Below are positions 2,565 through 59,134 of a stretch of 64,000 bases of DNA, one piece after another (positions within the stretch are counted from its first letter, which is position 1; each line of letters begins with the position of its first letter). The DNA is from Dehalococcoidia bacterium (GTDB lineage Bacteria; Chloroflexota; Dehalococcoidia; Bin125). The stretch is taken from the NCBI GenBank assembly GCA_022825855.1, contig JAJDWB010000010.1:62001-126000 (forward strand). Direction: 5' to 3'. The notes under the pieces are model-generated. The model made no database searches. It saw nothing but the letters and a program-made list of their open reading frames with translations, and was not told where the DNA came from. The position numbers and the translations under genes are program-made.

Positions 2565-3048
2565 GTCACGGCCGCTGGCCCCTGACCCCATGCGCGCTCT
2601 GTTTGCGAACTGACACAGTCTCCCGCAACAGAACTCACGTCCGCATATGATAGATCCGATCGCGATCAATCACGCAGGGGCGAGACATGGCCAACCAGAC
2701 AACCTTCCGCGGCGCCTTCAGTCCGCTCGCCATCGACCGGCGAACGCAGCCCATGCCGATTTGCCGGCTTCGACTCCCGCCCGCGCTCGCCGTGAACCGC
2801 CTGCATGAGGCGACCAAGACTGACCGCCGCCTACCAAACCTAACCACCTCCAACCAGCCCTCGAACGCCAATTCCCAGTGTTTTCCGCGGCCTCATGCCC
2901 GTTTTTCCGCAGCGAACCTCGGAAGAAAAATTCTTGACCAACCACCTCTCAACCAACAACCCGCCGCGCCGACGCTCAGCCGCCGCGCCGCCTACCCTTC
3001 GGAGGGCGGCGCAGCCGACGCCGCCCACGCGATCTAGCGAGGTCACCA
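2565..3048. other. 484-bp intergenic region containing phased-repeat element A
   Basis: A TATGAT hexamer (2646-2651) resembles a -10 box but has no convincing -35. Element A occupies about 2811-2960. A 116-codon frame (2687-3037) runs through the region but has proline/arginine-rich composition and no recognisable domain, so I do not call it a gene. Confidence 0.6.
2811..2960 (+). repeat. Phased 10-bp repeat element A with conserved core
   Basis: ACCA or ACCG words start at 2813, 2823, 2833, 2843 and 2853, an exact 10-bp spacing. A 65-bp core (2871-2935) begins ATTCCCAGT and ends GAAAAATTCTT, and matches the core of element B in sequence and length. ACCA words recur after the core at 2937, 2941 and 2952. 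The next co-oriented gene starts at 3049. Function unknown. Confidence 0.75.
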
Positions 3049-17730: not shown

Positions 17731-18201
17731 ATGGCGCTTTCCGGACCTGCACAACCCGCATTCGAGACCGCCTGCGAACTGATCGAACGCATCCTCGCCG
17801 CCGCCGACGGACTCTCGGCCGAACAGCTCGATTCCGCGCCCTGGGGCGAGTCGTCCTCGATGTTCATTCTCGCCACCCACGCGATCTCGGCCACCGAGTG
17901 GAACTTCGTGCACGTCCTCGCCGGTCTCGAAGTCGACCGCAGCCGCCAGGCCGAGTTCGATTCCCGCGCCGCAGCGGTTGACAATCCCCAGCGCTTGCTC
18001 GCCGACCGCTGGTCGGGCGCGCGGGCGGCGATCGAGTCGGCGCTCGCCGGACTCGCGGAGGACGCCTGGGATGGTCCGCACTACCACATGTTCATGGACA
18101 AGAATCTCAGCGGCCACGAGCTCGTCTGCCGCGCCCTCGCCCATACCGCCGAACACGTCGGCCACGCCGAGATGACCCGCCAATGGCTGGACCAATCGTG
18201 A
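17731..18201 (+). CDS. DinB-like four-helix protein
   Basis: 156 residues. A four-helix-bundle protein of the DinB/YfiT type: ATHAISATEWNFVHVLAG in the second helix region and a final helix with CRALAHTAEHVGHAEMTRQWL. DinB-like proteins bind a metal through three His; candidate ligands are the His in ATHAISATEW and the two in AHTAEHVGHAE. Many members use bacillithiol, mycothiol or similar thiols; which applies here is unknown. ATG 17731 is chosen because GGAGG is six bases upstream. Followed directly by phased-repeat element C. Confidence 0.78.
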   Translation: MALSGPAQPAFETACELIERILAAADGLSAEQLDSAPWGESSSMFILATHAISATEWNFVHVLAGLEVDRSRQAEFDSRAAAVDNPQRLLADRWSGARAAIESALAGLAEDAWDGPHYHMFMDKNLSGHELVCRALAHTAEHVGHAEMTRQWLDQS

Positions 18202-18557
18202 ACGATCAACACCGAACGCTTCCGAACGGATCCGAACAAACCCGAACGCCCTCCGACCTGAAACGAGCTGAAGAAACCTGAAAAAACCTGAAAAAACCTG
18301 AAAGGATTTGAGCGACTGAATCGCGCGATCCCCCGTAAAACATTGGAGATCGCGTCCGTTTTCTGAGCTGCGGGCCCTGAAAAAAAAGTTGGCCGAAAAC
18401 CTGAAACTCCGCGACGGCCGAACGCTCAGGGGAATTCCTCCCCGTCCCCGACTGGTTCGGGGACCCGCTCGGATCTCGGCCCAACGTAGGATTGCCGGTG
18501 AGCGTTCTATCCTGCCCTCACCACGCTGACGACTTCGCCCCACGAAAGGTCTGAACC
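18202..18557. other. 356-bp intergenic region dominated by repeat element C
   Basis: Apart from element C (18212-18409), the last 150 bp holds a GGGGAATTCC-CCCC segment and AAAGG before the next ATG. No credible reading frame. Confidence 0.6.
18212..18409 (+). repeat. Phased 10-bp repeat element C with conserved core
   Basis: CCGAAC occurs at 18212, 18222, 18232 and 18242, exactly ten apart. CCTGAA or GCTGAA then occurs at 18257, 18267, 18277, 18287 and 18297, again exactly ten apart. A core of about 64 bp (18328-18391) follows, matching element B in CGCGAT-CCC-GTAAAACA-TGGAGATCG and the poly-A end. After the core, CCGAAA and CCTGAA appear once more (18393, 18400). The next co-oriented gene starts at 18558. 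Confidence 0.8.
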
Positions 18558-19484
18558 ATGCCTCCAACTCCCGAGACCCAGGGACTGCTCGCCATGCTCG
18601 AGGAGGCCGGCGGCCCCGATATCTCCGAACAGACGCCGGAGGAAGCTCGAGCCGCGATCGCCAACTTCGCGGCGATGCAGGCCGGCGCGCCCGAGCCCGC
18701 CCATGTTGAGAACCGCACCGTCCCCGGTCCGGCCGGCGACATCCCCGTGCGCGTCTACGCCTCCGAGGGCGACAACCTGCCCGTCGTGATGTACTTCCAC
18801 GGCGGCGGCTGGGTGCTCGGCGACATCGACTCCCACGACGGCACCTGCAAGCAGCTCCTGGCCGAACTCGGCGACGCCGTCGTCGTCTCCGTCCATTACC
18901 GGCTCGCGCCCGAGGACAAGTATCCGGCCGCGGCAGACGACTGCTACGCGGCAGCGGCATGGGTCGCCGAGAACGGCTCCGAGATCGGCGCCGACGGCTC
19001 GCGCATGGCCGTCTGCGGCGACTCCGCCGGCGGCAACCTCTCCGCCGTCGTTTCGCAGATGGCCCGCGACCGCGGCGCTCCCGCCATCGCCGCGCAGGTC
19101 CTCCATGTCCCCGTCACCGACCACAACTACAGCTACCCCTCCTACACCGAGAACGCTGAGGGCATGCTGCTCACCCGCGCCTCGATGGTCTGGTTCTGGG
19201 ACCACTACCTGCCCAACGCCGACGCCGGTCAGGAGGCCTACGCCTCGCCGATCAAGGCCGACAACCTCTCCGGCCTGCCCCCGGCGCTGGTCCAGACCGC
19301 CGAATACGACCCCCTGCGCGACGAGGGCGAAGCCTACGCAGCCGCGCTCGAAGCCGCCGGCACCGAGGTCAGCCTGCACCGCTACGACGGCGTCGTCCAC
19401 GACCCCTTCATGATGTTCGCCGTCATCCCCACCGGCGTCGAATGCCTCAAGGAAGCCGCCGCCTTCATCAACGCCCGCATCTAA
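18558..19484 (+). CDS. HSL-family alpha/beta hydrolase (esterase)
   Basis: 308 residues. Oxyanion motif HGGGWVLG (about 79-86), nucleophile elbow CGDSAGGN (about 154-161), acid residue in AEYDPLRDEGE and catalytic His in YDGVVHDPF near the C-terminus. Its N-terminus, MPPTPETQGLLAMLEEAGG, resembles those of the neighbouring hydrolases, and with the next gene it forms a tandem paralogous pair separated by a REP-like hairpin. Cytoplasmic carboxylesterase; substrate unknown. Confidence 0.9.
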   Translation: MPPTPETQGLLAMLEEAGGPDISEQTPEEARAAIANFAAMQAGAPEPAHVENRTVPGPAGDIPVRVYASEGDNLPVVMYFHGGGWVLGDIDSHDGTCKQLLAELGDAVVVSVHYRLAPEDKYPAAADDCYAAAAWVAENGSEIGADGSRMAVCGDSAGGNLSAVVSQMARDRGAPAIAAQVLHVPVTDHNYSYPSYTENAEGMLLTRASMVWFWDHYLPNADAGQEAYASPIKADNLSGLPPALVQTAEYDPLRDEGEAYAAALEAAGTEVSLHRYDGVVHDPFMMFAVIPTGVECLKEAAAFINARI

Positions 19485-19501
19485 CCGCTCCTCCTCCGGT
19501 C

Positions 19502-19536
19502 CCCTCTCCCCGAGGGAGAGGGTTAGGGTGAGGGCC
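19502..19536. repeat. REP-like hairpin, family 1
   Basis: CCCTCTCCCC-GAGGGAGAGGG followed by TTAGGGTGAGGG, nearly identical to the repeats at 906 and 16621, in the gap between the two tandem esterase genes. Confidence 0.6.
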
Positions 19537-22042: not shown

Positions 22043-22672
22043 CTAGCGCAGCGTGATCGTTCCGCTCGGCCCCTCGATGACGGCGATCAGCGCCGGCTCG
22101 GGACCTTCCCGCAGTTCCAGTGCAACTCCCATCGCCGCATGCGCCCGGCGCACCGCGGCGACATCGGAGTGTTCGCCATGCCACGAGGCGAGGCGCGCAC
22201 CCTGGACGGCCGTGGTCGACGGATGCCGCGCGTCGCCCCAGTCGATCAGGAATGGCACCAGTCCTCCGAGCAGCGGCGGCCAGACAGTACGAGTCAGGCG
22301 CCAGTCGAGGCGCGTACCGTCGGCGAGCACTCGGCCCAACGGCCGCACCTCGCCGATGTCGTAGCCGGCGTCGCGCGCGGCGGCCGCGCGTTCGACAATC
22401 TCCGCGCCCGCCTTCCAACACCAGTGCGGGACATGCGCGCCCCGCGCACCGAAGTCGTCCATGCCGAACGGCAGCGGCCCTTCCGGATTCGGCTGCGCCG
22501 GGTCGGGCCCGATGATCTCCAGGTAGGCGTCGTCCTGCAACGCGAGCAAGTGGTTGTACACCCCACGCCCGGGAAAGTGTCCGCCGAGTTCGGGGCGCAG
22601 ACCGATCGCCGCTTCGATCTCGGCGACCGATGCCTGCACGTCGGGCGTTGCAAGCACGATGTGGTCAAGCAT
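22043..22672 (-). CDS. VOC/glyoxalase-like domain protein (tandem copy 2)
   Basis: 209 residues. Starts MLDHIVLATPDVQASV, the first betaalphabetabetabeta motif of a glyoxalase_3-type (PF13468) VOC protein; NHLLALQDDAYLEIIGPDP contains the Glu usually used as metal ligand. It shares its whole layout with the gene immediately upstream (MLDHIVLATPDVQATV, NHLLALQDGAYLEIIGPDP), so the two arose by tandem duplication. Enzyme activity in this subgroup is unassigned. Confidence 0.85.
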   Translation of the reverse strand: MLDHIVLATPDVQASVAEIEAAIGLRPELGGHFPGRGVYNHLLALQDDAYLEIIGPDPAQPNPEGPLPFGMDDFGARGAHVPHWCWKAGAEIVERAAAARDAGYDIGEVRPLGRVLADGTRLDWRLTRTVWPPLLGGLVPFLIDWGDARHPSTTAVQGARLASWHGEHSDVAAVRRAHAAMGVALELREGPEPALIAVIEGPSGTITLR

Positions 22673-22692
22673 GACAGTGCGCTCCGCGTCCG

Positions 22693-23319
22693 TTAGCGAT
22701 AACTGATCGACCCCTCGGGACCCTGAAACGTGGCGACCAGGGCCGGCTCGCCGGCTTCTCGCAGTTCGATGTCGATTCCCATCACCCGATGCGCCGCGCG
22801 TACGGCGTCGAGGTCGGGGTGCTCACCATGCCAGGAGGCGAGACTCACGCCCTGGACTGCGGTGGTGGAGGGATGCGTCGCGTCGCCCCAGTCGATCAGG
22901 AACGGGATCAGCCCGCCGAGATGCGGCGGCCATTCGCCGATCGTCAACCGCCAGTCGAGCCGGCCGCCGTCGGGCAGGTCGCGTCCCAGGGGGACGACCG
23001 GGCCCAGGTCGTAGCCGGCGTCCTTGATCGCCGCGGCAAGCTCGTCGATCCGTTCGTTGCCCTTCCAGCACCAATGGGCGATATGCGCGCCGCGATCGGA
23101 GTCCCGCTCCAGGCCGAAGGGCATGGATCCGCCGCCCTCGTGCTCGGGATCGGGTCCGATGATCTCCAGGTAGGCGCCGTCCTGCAAGGCGAGCAAGTGG
23201 TTGTACGCCCCCATCTGCGTGAAGCGCCCGCCGACTTCGGCACGCACGCCGGTCGCCGCCGCGATCTCCTCAACGGTGGCCTGCACGTCGGGCGTAGCCA
23301 GCACGATGTGATCAAGCAT
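22693..23319 (-). CDS. VOC/glyoxalase-like domain protein (tandem copy 1)
   Basis: 208 residues. Paralogue of the downstream gene, separated by 20 bp. The metal-binding region is AYLEIIGPDPE, and HIAHWCWKG and LIPFLIDWGDATHPS are shared blocks. ATG 23319 is preferred over an ATG 15 bp upstream because GAGGAG lies seven bases before it and the conserved domain begins there. The pair may act as a heterodimer or on related substrates; this is inference. Confidence 0.85.
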   Translation of the reverse strand: MLDHIVLATPDVQATVEEIAAATGVRAEVGGRFTQMGAYNHLLALQDGAYLEIIGPDPEHEGGGSMPFGLERDSDRGAHIAHWCWKGNERIDELAAAIKDAGYDLGPVVPLGRDLPDGGRLDWRLTIGEWPPHLGGLIPFLIDWGDATHPSTTAVQGVSLASWHGEHPDLDAVRAAHRVMGIDIELREAGEPALVATFQGPEGSISYR

Positions 23320-23337
23320 GACGAGACTCCTCAATTC

Positions 23338-33462: not shown

Positions 33463-33483
33463 GGGCTCCAGTGTATGAGGCAG

Positions 33484-33601
33484 TGGTCAGTGGTTAGGAA
33501 AGAATTTTTCTCCGAGCGGCCTCCAGGAAAAACAGCGTCGATCTCCAGTGTTTTACTGGGAATCGCGAAGTTCGGGATGGTTGGAAGTGGTTAGCTTTGG
33601 T
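33484..33601 (-). repeat. Phased 10-bp repeat element B with conserved core (minus orientation)
   Basis: Read on the minus strand, ACCA words (plus-strand TGGT at 33598, 33588, 33578) are exactly ten apart, followed by the 64-bp core (33563 to 33500, ATTCCCAGT to GAAAAATTCTT) and two more ACCA words (33491, 33484). The core contains CCAGT-AAAAC-ACTGG, a perfect inverted repeat. The rhomboid gene starts 38 bp beyond the core. Confidence 0.75.
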
Positions 33602-33727
33602 CAGTCCTGTCAGGTCGTCGGCCATACTCGTTCGCCTCTCCGGTGCGTAGAACTCATGTGCTCTATGATAGCCGGGCGGGGAATCCCCCGACGTTGCGTA
33701 GGATGCAGACCACGCGAGCTTGCATGC

Positions 33728-41222: not shown

Positions 41223-41253
41223 TCGGCGCTTCGCCTGAGCCCTGCCGCTCCCG

Positions 41254-41279
41254 TCTCCCTTCGGGAGAGGGTTAAGGTG
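41254..41279. repeat. REP-like hairpin, family 1 (short copy)
   Basis: TCTCCC-TTC-GGGAGA followed by GGGTTAAGGTGAG, a shortened relative of the repeats at 906, 16621 and 19502. It overlaps the Shine-Dalgarno region of thiN. Confidence 0.45.
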
Positions 41280-41284
41280 AGCGC

Positions 41285-45814: not shown

Positions 45815-45849
45815 GAGGGCCGCCCTTCGGGGCGGCCCTCGGTCGTTTC
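45815..45849 (+). terminator. Rho-independent-type terminator after groEL
   Basis: GAGGGCCGCCC-TTCG-GGGCGGCCCTC forms an 11-bp GC stem with a stable tetraloop, starting 22 bp after the stop and followed by a short T-containing tract. Confidence 0.8.
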
Positions 45850-45862
45850 TGCGCCCCCATCT

Positions 45863-45928
45863 CCGTCATTCCTGCGCCTCTCTCCGTCATTCCTGCGCCC
45901 CCTTCCGTCATTCCTGCGCAGGCAGGAA
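45863..45928. repeat. Triple CCGTCATTCCTGCGC repeat (REP-like, family 4)
   Basis: The 15-mer occurs at 45863, 45884 and 45905, exactly 21 bp apart. The last copy continues into the palindrome TTCCTGC-GCAG-GCAGGAA (45911-45928). It resembles widespread CGTCATTCC-type intergenic REPs. Confidence 0.65.
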
Positions 45929-56698: not shown

Positions 56699-59134
56699 AT
56701 GTCCCGGTTCTTCAGATTGGCGTTCGGCGCCATGATTGCGCTGTCCCTGGCGGCGGCGCTGATTGTCGGCTGTTCCGACGATGAACAGGAGCAGCCGCAA
56801 CAGCAGGTTGCACAGGAACAGGATCAGTCTCAACAGGACGGGCGCACCGTCGCCCAGGCTCAGGCCGCGCAACAGGACCAACAGGTCCAACAGGCTCAGC
56901 AGACCGATACCGGCGAGCCGCTGGAAGTGGTTGTTTCCACGCAGGTGATCGCGGACTGGGTCCGCCAGATCGGCGGCGAGCACGTCAGTGTCCGCGCGCT
57001 GGTGCCTGCGGGGGCAGACGCGCACACGATCGAGTTGAGCGTGACGGACATCCGCGCCATCGCGAATGCCGACCTCGTGGTCATCAACGGGGCTGGACTT
57101 GAGTCGGCATACGAAGACGCAATCCACGAGAACTCGGAGCACGTGCTCGAATTGACCGAAGCGATCGAGGACGCCGGCTTCGAGTTGGCCCCGTTCGGGG
57201 CGATGGAGCACGATCACGGGCAGCAAGACGAGGACGAGCATGCCCACGAGGATGAGGATGACCACGAACACGAGGACGAAGATCATCAGCAGCACGAACA
57301 AGACGAAGAAGACGAGCACGACGACGCACACGCTGCGACGCCAACCGGCCGGCTGCTGATCGCAGACTCGGCCGAGGCCGTCATTTCAGTCGTCGACCTG
57401 ATGAGCGAAGAGGTCGACCACGGCGCATTCGCCGTCGCCACGGTCAACGCCACCGTGAAGAACAGTCCTACCCACCGCTACGGGATCGTGCTGGCTCGCG
57501 GGCCGGAGGACGACGACGATCGCATCCACATCTTTGACGGCGGCGTCTTCCTGGTCGAGCACGACGATCACTACGACCTGTTCACCGAGCCGGTCTCCCG
57601 GCACTCGCTGGAGATCGTTGAAGAAGCGCCGATTCACTACGTCAACAGCTACGGCTGGACCACGATCTTCGCCGACGCCAGCGGTCACGTAATCCTGATC
57701 AATGAAGAGGAACTGACGCACGCTCAGGGCGACTACGAACCAATCGTGCTTGAGGCCGGGCCGCAGCACGGAGCCGGGCTGGTCATTTCAGAGGACCACG
57801 TCGTGGTCACGACCAAGAATCCCGACGACCCGAACGACCCGCTGCCGGTCGGCGTCGAGGTCTGGACGTTCGACGGGGACGTCGTCTACGACGCCAGCAA
57901 CGCCTCATGCCCCGGTATGCACGGCGAGGCGCACAGCGAGCATGGCGCGGTCTTTGGCTGCGTCGGCGGTGTGCTCTTCCTGCACGCCCACGACGGCGAG
58001 TACGAGCACGAGTTCATCGCCAACCCGCCCGAGATGCACGAAGCAGCGCGGATCGGCTCTGTCTACGGCCATCACCATCTGGAGCACTTCTTCGGCAGCG
58101 CTTCCTATCGCGGCGAGGCCGGCTGGAACTCCGACGGTATCTGGCTGATCGACGTGGTCTATGGCACGATGACCCGTGTCTTTGACGCGGGAACTCTGGC
58201 GGCCGTGATTGGCAATCACGGCGAGACGCTCTACTTGCTCGGCGCCGACGCAGTGCTCTACGCGCTCGACACACACGATGGTGAGATGATCGCCAGCGTC
58301 GAGATGGTCGGCGCCGGCGAGGCCGGCAGGCCCGGCATGATCGCCGTCGGCGAGTTTCTCTTCATCACCGATCCCAGCGACGGACACGTGCTGATGGTCG
58401 ACGGCCACTCGCTAGAGGTCGTCGAGGAATGGCACGTGGGCGGCGCGCCGAGTTCGCTCGCCTTTGTCGGTGTGGTCGACGCGGACGACGCGCCGCACGC
58501 CGGACACGACGACGACGAGATGCACGAAGACGACCACGACGAAGACGAGGACCACGAGCACGAACAAGACGAGGAGGACGACGATCACGGCGATGAAGAG
58601 GACGGCCACGGTCACGCCCACGACCATGGCGATGAGGACCCGCACTTCTGGTTCGACGCCGATCTGGTCGCGGTCGCGCTCGTTGCCATCGCCGATGAGC
58701 TCAGTCACCTGAATCCGGCCGCCGAGAGCGCCATCGCTGCGGGACTGGACCGCTACCTCGGCGAGGTCGAGGCAGCCGACGCCGAAGTGCGAGCGTTGCT
58801 GGCGGACATTCCCGACAGCCACCGGCTGCTGGTCACCTTCCACGACGCCTTCGGCTACTTCGCTCGACGCTACGGCCTGGAGATCGCCGGATTCGTGGTC
58901 GAGGGACCGGAGCAGGGCGTCAGCGCTGCCGCGTTGACCGAACTGATTGAGATCATCGAACACGAAGGCGTGCAGACGGTCTTCCACGAGCCGCAGTTCG
59001 ACTCGTCGATCCTCGACACGATCGCCGATGAAACCGGCGCCGCGCGCGGCATCATCTGGTCGCAGCCGACCGAGGACAATCCGACCTTCCTCGGCATCCT
59101 GCTCGGCAACGCGAGGGCCATTGCCGAACAGTAA
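56699..59134 (+). CDS. AztC/ZnuA-type zinc-binding lipoprotein with inserted AztD-like beta-propeller
   Basis: 811 residues, more than twice the normal ZnuA length. Signal peptide with lipobox IVGC (Cys25), a Gln-rich linker (27-70), then the first lobe of a zinc solute-binding protein (75-165) with a ligand-type His109. A His/Asp/Glu-rich stretch (170-212), a beta-propeller-like domain (about 214-590) and a second His/Asp-rich stretch (599-645) follow. The second lobe resumes at 647 with DPHFW (His649) and TFHDAF (His715). The propeller carries CPGMHGEA and a Cys pair (404, 421) that recall AztD, the periplasmic zinc chaperone. The usual fourth ligand region reads IIWSQPTED, without the expected LDP Asp. 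I infer a fused binding protein and chaperone for zinc uptake. Confidence 0.85.
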   Translation: MSRFFRLAFGAMIALSLAAALIVGCSDDEQEQPQQQVAQEQDQSQQDGRTVAQAQAAQQDQQVQQAQQTDTGEPLEVVVSTQVIADWVRQIGGEHVSVRALVPAGADAHTIELSVTDIRAIANADLVVINGAGLESAYEDAIHENSEHVLELTEAIEDAGFELAPFGAMEHDHGQQDEDEHAHEDEDDHEHEDEDHQQHEQDEEDEHDDAHAATPTGRLLIADSAEAVISVVDLMSEEVDHGAFAVATVNATVKNSPTHRYGIVLARGPEDDDDRIHIFDGGVFLVEHDDHYDLFTEPVSRHSLEIVEEAPIHYVNSYGWTTIFADASGHVILINEEELTHAQGDYEPIVLEAGPQHGAGLVISEDHVVVTTKNPDDPNDPLPVGVEVWTFDGDVVYDASNASCPGMHGEAHSEHGAVFGCVGGVLFLHAHDGEYEHEFIANPPEMHEAARIGSVYGHHHLEHFFGSASYRGEAGWNSDGIWLIDVVYGTMTRVFDAGTLAAVIGNHGETLYLLGADAVLYALDTHDGEMIASVEMVGAGEAGRPGMIAVGEFLFITDPSDGHVLMVDGHSLEVVEEWHVGGAPSSLAFVGVVDADDAPHAGHDDDEMHEDDHDEDEDHEHEQDEEDDDHGDEEDGHGHAHDHGDEDPHFWFDADLVAVALVAIADELSHLNPAAESAIAAGLDRYLGEVEAADAEVRALLADIPDSHRLLVTFHDAFGYFARRYGLEIAGFVVEGPEQGVSAAALTELIEIIEHEGVQTVFHEPQFDSSILDTIADETGAARGIIWSQPTEDNPTFLGILLGNARAIAEQ

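Follow-up and report, generated by a model that had tools for sequence, protein, structure and literature searches.

A 10-bp-phased word array in a Dehalococcoidia genome is probably a solo copy of a mobile-looking helix-turn-helix gene family

Introduction

The 64,000-nucleotide stretch of Dehalococcoidia DNA analyzed here (herein referred to as the window) contains, between a gene of the mycothiol-S-transferase/DinB superfamily and an alpha/beta hydrolase gene, nine short words laid out at 10-bp spacing ahead of a conserved core. A preliminary description, made from the sequence of the window, had proposed that the array is bound cooperatively by an unknown protein. This raises the questions of what kind of element occupies the locus, whether it recurs elsewhere, and which protein might read it.

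Results and Discussion

A Phased Array in Two Blocks

All nine words were confirmed at the positions first described, with exact 10-bp steps inside each of two blocks (table 1). The lag-10 self-match of 18212–18303 is 0.72, against a mean of 0.295 (sd 0.058) in 5,000 dinucleotide shuffles, none of which reaches 0.72 at lag 10 or at any lag from 5 to 30; the periodicity therefore stands above that of shuffled sequence, a comparison that the preliminary description had proposed. This is the strongest lag-10 stretch within the window, and TRF independently reports a period of 10 at 18256–18303. The claim that all words face one side of the DNA does not hold across the array: the step from the outer to the inner block is 15 bp (18242 to 18257), or about 1.5 helical turns, so that a DNA face is shared only within each block (in other copies read by eye, the corresponding gap is 13–15 bp). 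One further copy of each word had been described after the core, which is correct for CCGAAC (18418) but not for CCTGAA, of which there are two (18376 and 18400). The stop codon of the upstream gene, whose orthologs were found in 11 further genomes of the genus, abuts the element.

Table 1. Features of the window discussed in the text.
Feature	Position	Strand	Remarks
Upstream neighbor gene (mycothiol-S-transferase/DinB superfamily)	17731..18201	+	Pfam PF04978 2e-10, PF12867
Outer block, four CCGAAC words at exact 10-bp steps	18212..18247	+	Starts 18212, 18222, 18232, 18242; family unit YCGAACAnan
Inner block, five C/GCTGAA words at exact 10-bp steps, word type 1	18257..18302	+	Starts 18257, 18267, 18277, 18287, 18297
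Imperfect palindrome GATCCCCCGT-AAAAC-ATTGGAGATC	18327..18351	+	Family consensus GATCYCCMGT-AAAAC-ACTGGAGATC
CCTGAA word running into A8 tract	18376..18387	+	
Post-core words CCTGAA (18400) and CCGAAC (18418)	18400..18423	+	
Downstream co-directional alpha/beta hydrolase gene	18558..19484	+	Pfam PF07859 1.7e-76
Second solo copy, word type 2 (TGACCA/CTAACCA/CCAACCA)	33470..33640	-	Core 33545–33559; outer limits approximate
Third solo copy, word type 2, palindrome spacer inverted	2790..2965	+	Core 2875–2889; outer limits approximate

The Array Belongs to a Dispersed Composite Site

Searched at the DNA level, the genome to which the window belongs (G000; 2.8 Mb in 22 contigs) returned 44 matches, about 30 of which were accepted by reading as real copies; the core is thus found at other loci of the genome, a recurrence on which the preliminary description had made its case depend. 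A typical copy, read 5′ to 3′, starts with outer words followed by inner words; the imperfect palindrome and an A-tract (GAAAAAAAATTC) come next, and one or two more inner words end the copy. The outer-word unit (table 1) was derived from conservation over 243 adjacent unit pairs, in which the bases beside GAAC are constrained while the spacers vary. Inner words fall into several types (CCTGAA, AACCA/TGACCA, TTGATC and others), the type is the same before and after the core across copies, and the number of units varies between orthologs. Across 30 solo copies the mean lag-10 self-match is 0.513, versus 0.265 in flanking control DNA, with echoes at 20 and 30. The second solo copy in the window has an ortholog kept in place in G011. 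Comparison of 97 palindrome cores revealed no base-pair covariation; C:T and C:A mismatches are frequent and tolerated, and the two half-sites are conserved separately. Because pair covariation is absent, we read the palindrome as a putative double-stranded DNA site, as for dimer binding, rather than as a hairpin.

Several other repeats were seen alongside these copies. Solo copies often occur in tandem pairs about 170–310 bp apart (L004, L022 and several places in G014 and G006). Core look-alikes of the form CCGGTAAAACACTGG occur without word arrays at L036 (1501), L059 (1501), L091, L093, L094, L106 and L109; these loci are partly orthologous, are present also in genomes without the element, and perhaps represent an unrelated operator, and they were left out of the copy family. 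A second dispersed repeat, CCCTCTCCC..GGGAGAGGG with GGGTTAGGGTGAGGG, lies at 890–939, 19485–19534 and 41234–41283 of the window and often adjoins elements and HTH genes, both there and in related loci. The window also holds a tandem CTCCGTCATTCCTGCGCC repeat (45838–45919), and similar CCGTCATTCCCGCG repeats cluster next to HTH genes in G017. Coding-type repeats rich in histidine, aspartate and glutamate occur in the window at two places close to each other (57207–57336 and 58485–58626), as do two adjacent segments 650 bp apart that are 75–81% identical (22054–23322), likely a tandem gene duplication.

The Site Also Lies Within the Coding Linker of an HTH Gene Family

One copy of the site (L012) lies in frame within a 275-aa gene that encodes a helix-turn-helix (HTH) and a SEC-C motif. 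Relatives of this gene form a multicopy family, with up to 17 per genome, and its paralogs hold the composite site at the same linker-coding place. In G017, a genome of another genus, seven to eight CGAACA-like words follow one another within the reading frame, each exactly 10 bp from the next; the lag-10 self-match of these coding linkers is 0.72–0.75, and none of 300 codon shuffles is as good. Because a 10-bp unit rotates the reading frame, a protein-level cause of the phasing is unlikely, and the earlier view that the spacing is a signal at the level of DNA is upheld by its exact retention even inside open reading frames.

The AlphaFold model of the HTH protein has a confident HTH (residues 5–45), a long helix to residue 77 and a second long helix at 90–123; its low-confidence linker (130–179) coincides exactly with the stretch encoded by the DNA site. 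For the HTH, the structural match is to the DeoR DNA-binding domain (43 residues, rmsd 0.6–0.8); the two long helices resemble many helical hairpins, none in particular, and fold matches beyond the HTH are weak. Pfam identified HTH and SEC-C in 25 members and no Y1 transposase domain among them, and scans with Pfam, PHROGs and NCBIfam found no transposase or recombinase catalytic domain in the family, the similarities being to the HTH part only.

The linker word tracks two recognition-helix residues in the 48 HTH genes compared: V/I + H goes with CCTGAA, K/R + H with CTGAAC, P + H with CGAACA, H + L/V with AACCA/TGACCA and x + R mostly with ATTGAnC, a pairing that is confounded by HTH subfamily and not phylogenetically independent. 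The x + R genes carry a degenerate core. A partly independent check on the pairing comes from G006, where two divergent HTH genes both carry CTGAACA and the solo copies have CTGAACA before and after the core; indeed, of the CTGAACA pairs at 10-bp spacing in 20 genomes, 13 are in G006 and 1 is elsewhere. CCTGAA triplets (type 1 arrays) occur in 8 genomes, and no CTGAACA array pair is present in G014 despite its K/H-type HTH gene (L131). Word arrays could also be partly homogenized by slippage or gene conversion without any binding.

Lineage-Specific Distribution

The search of related genomes, a step suggested in the preliminary description, covered sixty relatives and 20 family members. True solo copies (core with words) were found in one genus, in 11 of its 15 genomes, and in no other genus of this search set; G017 has CGAACA arrays without the core. 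Long CGAACA arrays also occur in G017 away from the listed HTH genes (C1:916355–916430 and C1:972455–972520), and solo arrays may exist in its genus too. HTH genes are found in 10 of the 15 genomes (none in G003, G004, G007, G008 and G013), and four of the five genomes without an HTH gene have no true solo copy either, the exception being G007, a metagenome-assembled genome (91% complete) with solo copies in which no HTH gene was detected. HTH-gene and core counts correlate across the genus (Spearman rho 0.92). CGAACA arrays and HTH genes occur together in 11 genomes, arrays only in 1, HTH genes only in 0 and neither in 8. Within the class, the HTH family has matches in just 12 of 294 genomes, all of one taxonomic family.

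Individual loci are occupied in some species and empty in others. At the window locus the element is present in G006 and G014, whereas in G003 (neighbor protein 88% identical) and G009 the same two genes flank a short element-free spacer. An element upstream of uvrB is kept in place in eight genomes, with inner words that differ by species (CCTGAA in G000, TTGATC in G010), and the site is empty in G004, G005, G008, G009, G011 and G013. The contigs with matches belong to Dehalococcoidia/Chloroflexota metagenome-assembled genomes, and several isolate names point to sponge hosts, which suggests that the Dehalococcoidia carrying the element live in sponges.

A Mobile-Looking HTH Gene and Its Solo Copies

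In G000, alignments of related HTH genes begin sharply at a shared left end (CTCCGCAAACCACGACACA...) and run as far as the stop codon, with unrelated flanks; a few solo copies still have this left end. In L133 (G012) the HTH part of an HTH gene is deleted with promoter and site kept, and this copy appears to be a natural intermediate to the solo copies. No inverted counterpart to the conserved left end was seen, the right end being the stop codon, and no target-site duplication was found in flanks too diverged for duplications to be read. Since no recombinase domain was found and target duplications are unreadable, we infer movement from presence and absence, a pattern with which loss is also compatible.

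Membership of the window feature in the HTH gene family is strongly supported. We hypothesize, at a probability of roughly 0.6, that 18212–18423 is a solo copy, truncated at its 5′ end and lacking the HTH, of a mobile-looking HTH gene family confined to one genus, and that the protein of this family binds the phased words. The array is most likely a binding array for HTH-family proteins, and the multicopy family supplies a specific candidate for the cooperative array-binding protein. Full members are single-gene units of about 0.8 kb. Each has a LexA-like box in its promoter and encodes an HTH protein that includes a long helical hairpin and a disordered linker, and the DNA coding for this linker is the composite site (10-bp-phased words, GATC-ended palindrome, A-tract and more words). 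Solo members keep the site, and often the promoter and start codon too, and lack the HTH-coding part. The protein would oligomerize through its helices and bind words along one face of the DNA, using the palindrome as its dimer site; such binding would mark its own gene and all solo copies as targets, both for autoregulation and for copying by host recombination.

Alternative Explanations

The composite site could instead be an operator or leader through which HTH proteins (and LexA) control some 30 host genes, its copies having spread as regulatory DNA of use to the host and not as selfish elements. Consistent with such a host regulatory module, in about 24 of 29 copies a co-directional start codon follows the core at a distance of about 66–240 bp (p 3e-4; neighbor direction from open-frame reading plus Pfam, several downstream genes being Pfam-confirmed), and the uvrB copy is kept in place in eight genomes. 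The promoters are also suggestive: lexA promoters in most genomes of the genus carry GAACn4GTTC boxes, and a resembling box (at least 7 of 8 positions) lies upstream of 24 of 33 HTH genes and 21 of 28 solo copies, with a mean score of 6.7–6.8 versus 5.3–5.7 expected. However, the genes downstream of solo copies have no common theme (gltX, nuoB, ilvC, uvrB and hydrolases), several of them seem to have their own -10 beside the ATG, the same genes in sister species are without the element, and the window copy lacks the promoter part; we therefore consider this explanation unlikely, if worth keeping in view. The logic of a replication origin or of packaging, with the HTH gene as an initiator that contains its ori, as for lambda O, or as a small terminase with pac within or close to its gene, and with the solo copies as extra origins or pac sites, would fit repeats within the gene's own linker region, an HTH with two long helices in a hairpin, an SOS-type promoter and matches to the small-terminase family PF10668. 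These matches are weak (best 3e-4, three members) and below the gathering score in the member shown, the small-terminase fold match is at chance level (6v1i, prob 0.25), and the HTH genes examined stand alone among host genes with no terminase or virion neighbors. No viral relative of the HTH family was found in viral contigs, on which ground a phage origin was rejected, and the origin or packaging logic as a whole appears improbable. (The bare word patterns match 85 and 19 viral contigs in two pattern searches.)

A transcribed RNA element, in which a hairpin and an A-rich unstructured leader act as attenuator, Rho site or stop-codon array, is very improbable. The plus strand is indeed C-rich and unstructured, CCTGAA every 10 nt places TGA in all three frames, and several solo copies have short SD-ATG leader ORFs; yet CCCGAA and CCAACCA words contain no stops, and the same arrays run without stops inside translated linkers, which argues against both the stop-codon array and the Rho site. 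A hairpin or riboswitch was rejected on the lack of an Rfam match and of covariation in the 97 cores with their frequent mismatches, and the element accordingly differs from Rfam structured RNAs in having neither a described family nor a covarying stem. A pseudoknot between the AAAAC loop and a downstream GTTTT fails because GTTTT is absent from about half of the copies, and a conserved leader peptide appears unlikely because the leader ORFs run into stop words and share composition, not sequence. Finally, the array might be a decaying minisatellite or intrinsically curved DNA with phased A-tracts and no specific partner, since type 1 words bear A-tracts at 10-bp steps and unit number differs between orthologs. 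This we find scarcely credible: CGAACA and CTGAACA arrays have no long A-tracts, which argues against curvature, conservation is concentrated beside GAAC and not in the spacers, and word types covary with the type of HTH and also between the two sides of the core.

Comparison with Known Systems

A solo copy of a mobile-looking HTH gene family, our preferred reading, resembles several known systems in part. In lambda O/ori and in plasmid iterons, repeats lie within the coding sequence for the very protein that binds them, beside A-rich DNA. The repeats in the linker-coding DNA here are likewise next to A-rich DNA, but they are 10-bp units, no replication functions were identified, and solo copies are dispersed. 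Transposons and MITEs differ in that the full copies here have no transposase catalytic domain by Pfam, PHROGs and NCBIfam. The system shares with REPIN/RAYT (PMC3116915) many short nonautonomous extragenic copies associated with the gene of a cognate protein, sequence types that are specific to a genome, and a proposed spread within genomes; unlike it, no Y1/HUH transposase was found in the HTH protein (25 members, Pfam), the core is not a maintained hairpin (97 cores), and the copies contain a 10-bp-phased word array, with the site inside the gene's coding linker. The SPP1/SF6 small terminase is an oligomerizing HTH protein with direct repeats that extend over the promoter and the beginning of its gene, and little repeat specificity is reported for the SF6 DNA-binding domain (PMC4737164). 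An HTH protein, here a proposed oligomer, with direct repeats at its own gene is common to both, whereas the present family has no phage neighbors or viral relatives that we could find, many dispersed copies, and a strong pairing of word and subfamily. BldC of Streptomyces binds variable numbers of direct repeats head-to-tail on roughly one face, and is one conserved, nonmobile MerR-like regulator with no known sites in its own coding sequence (PMC5859096). The repeat geometry is met again here, where head-to-tail binding is putative, but the HTH family is multicopy, mobile-looking and carries the site inside its own coding sequence.

Implications

A dispersed site that is found also inside fast-evolving, copy-number-variable HTH genes, together with a word for each subfamily, looks like a new small mobile element, and our literature searches found no description of such an element. 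We tentatively suggest, at somewhat less than even odds, a new class: a transposase-less HTH gene with its own recognition array in a coding linker, spreading as full and solo copies and rewriting the 10-bp word in many copies of a genome in step with the recognition helix, so that a legible code between protein and DNA would evolve through concerted turnover. If so, bacterial mobile genes would move without a recognizable recombinase, keep their cis-site inside protein-coding DNA, and alter a DNA recognition code at dozens of loci in concert. The five types of natural pairing between word and recognition helix already form a set on which HTH specificity can be tested, and SOS-type promoters beside housekeeping genes suggest a way in which these elements could rewire symbiont gene control.
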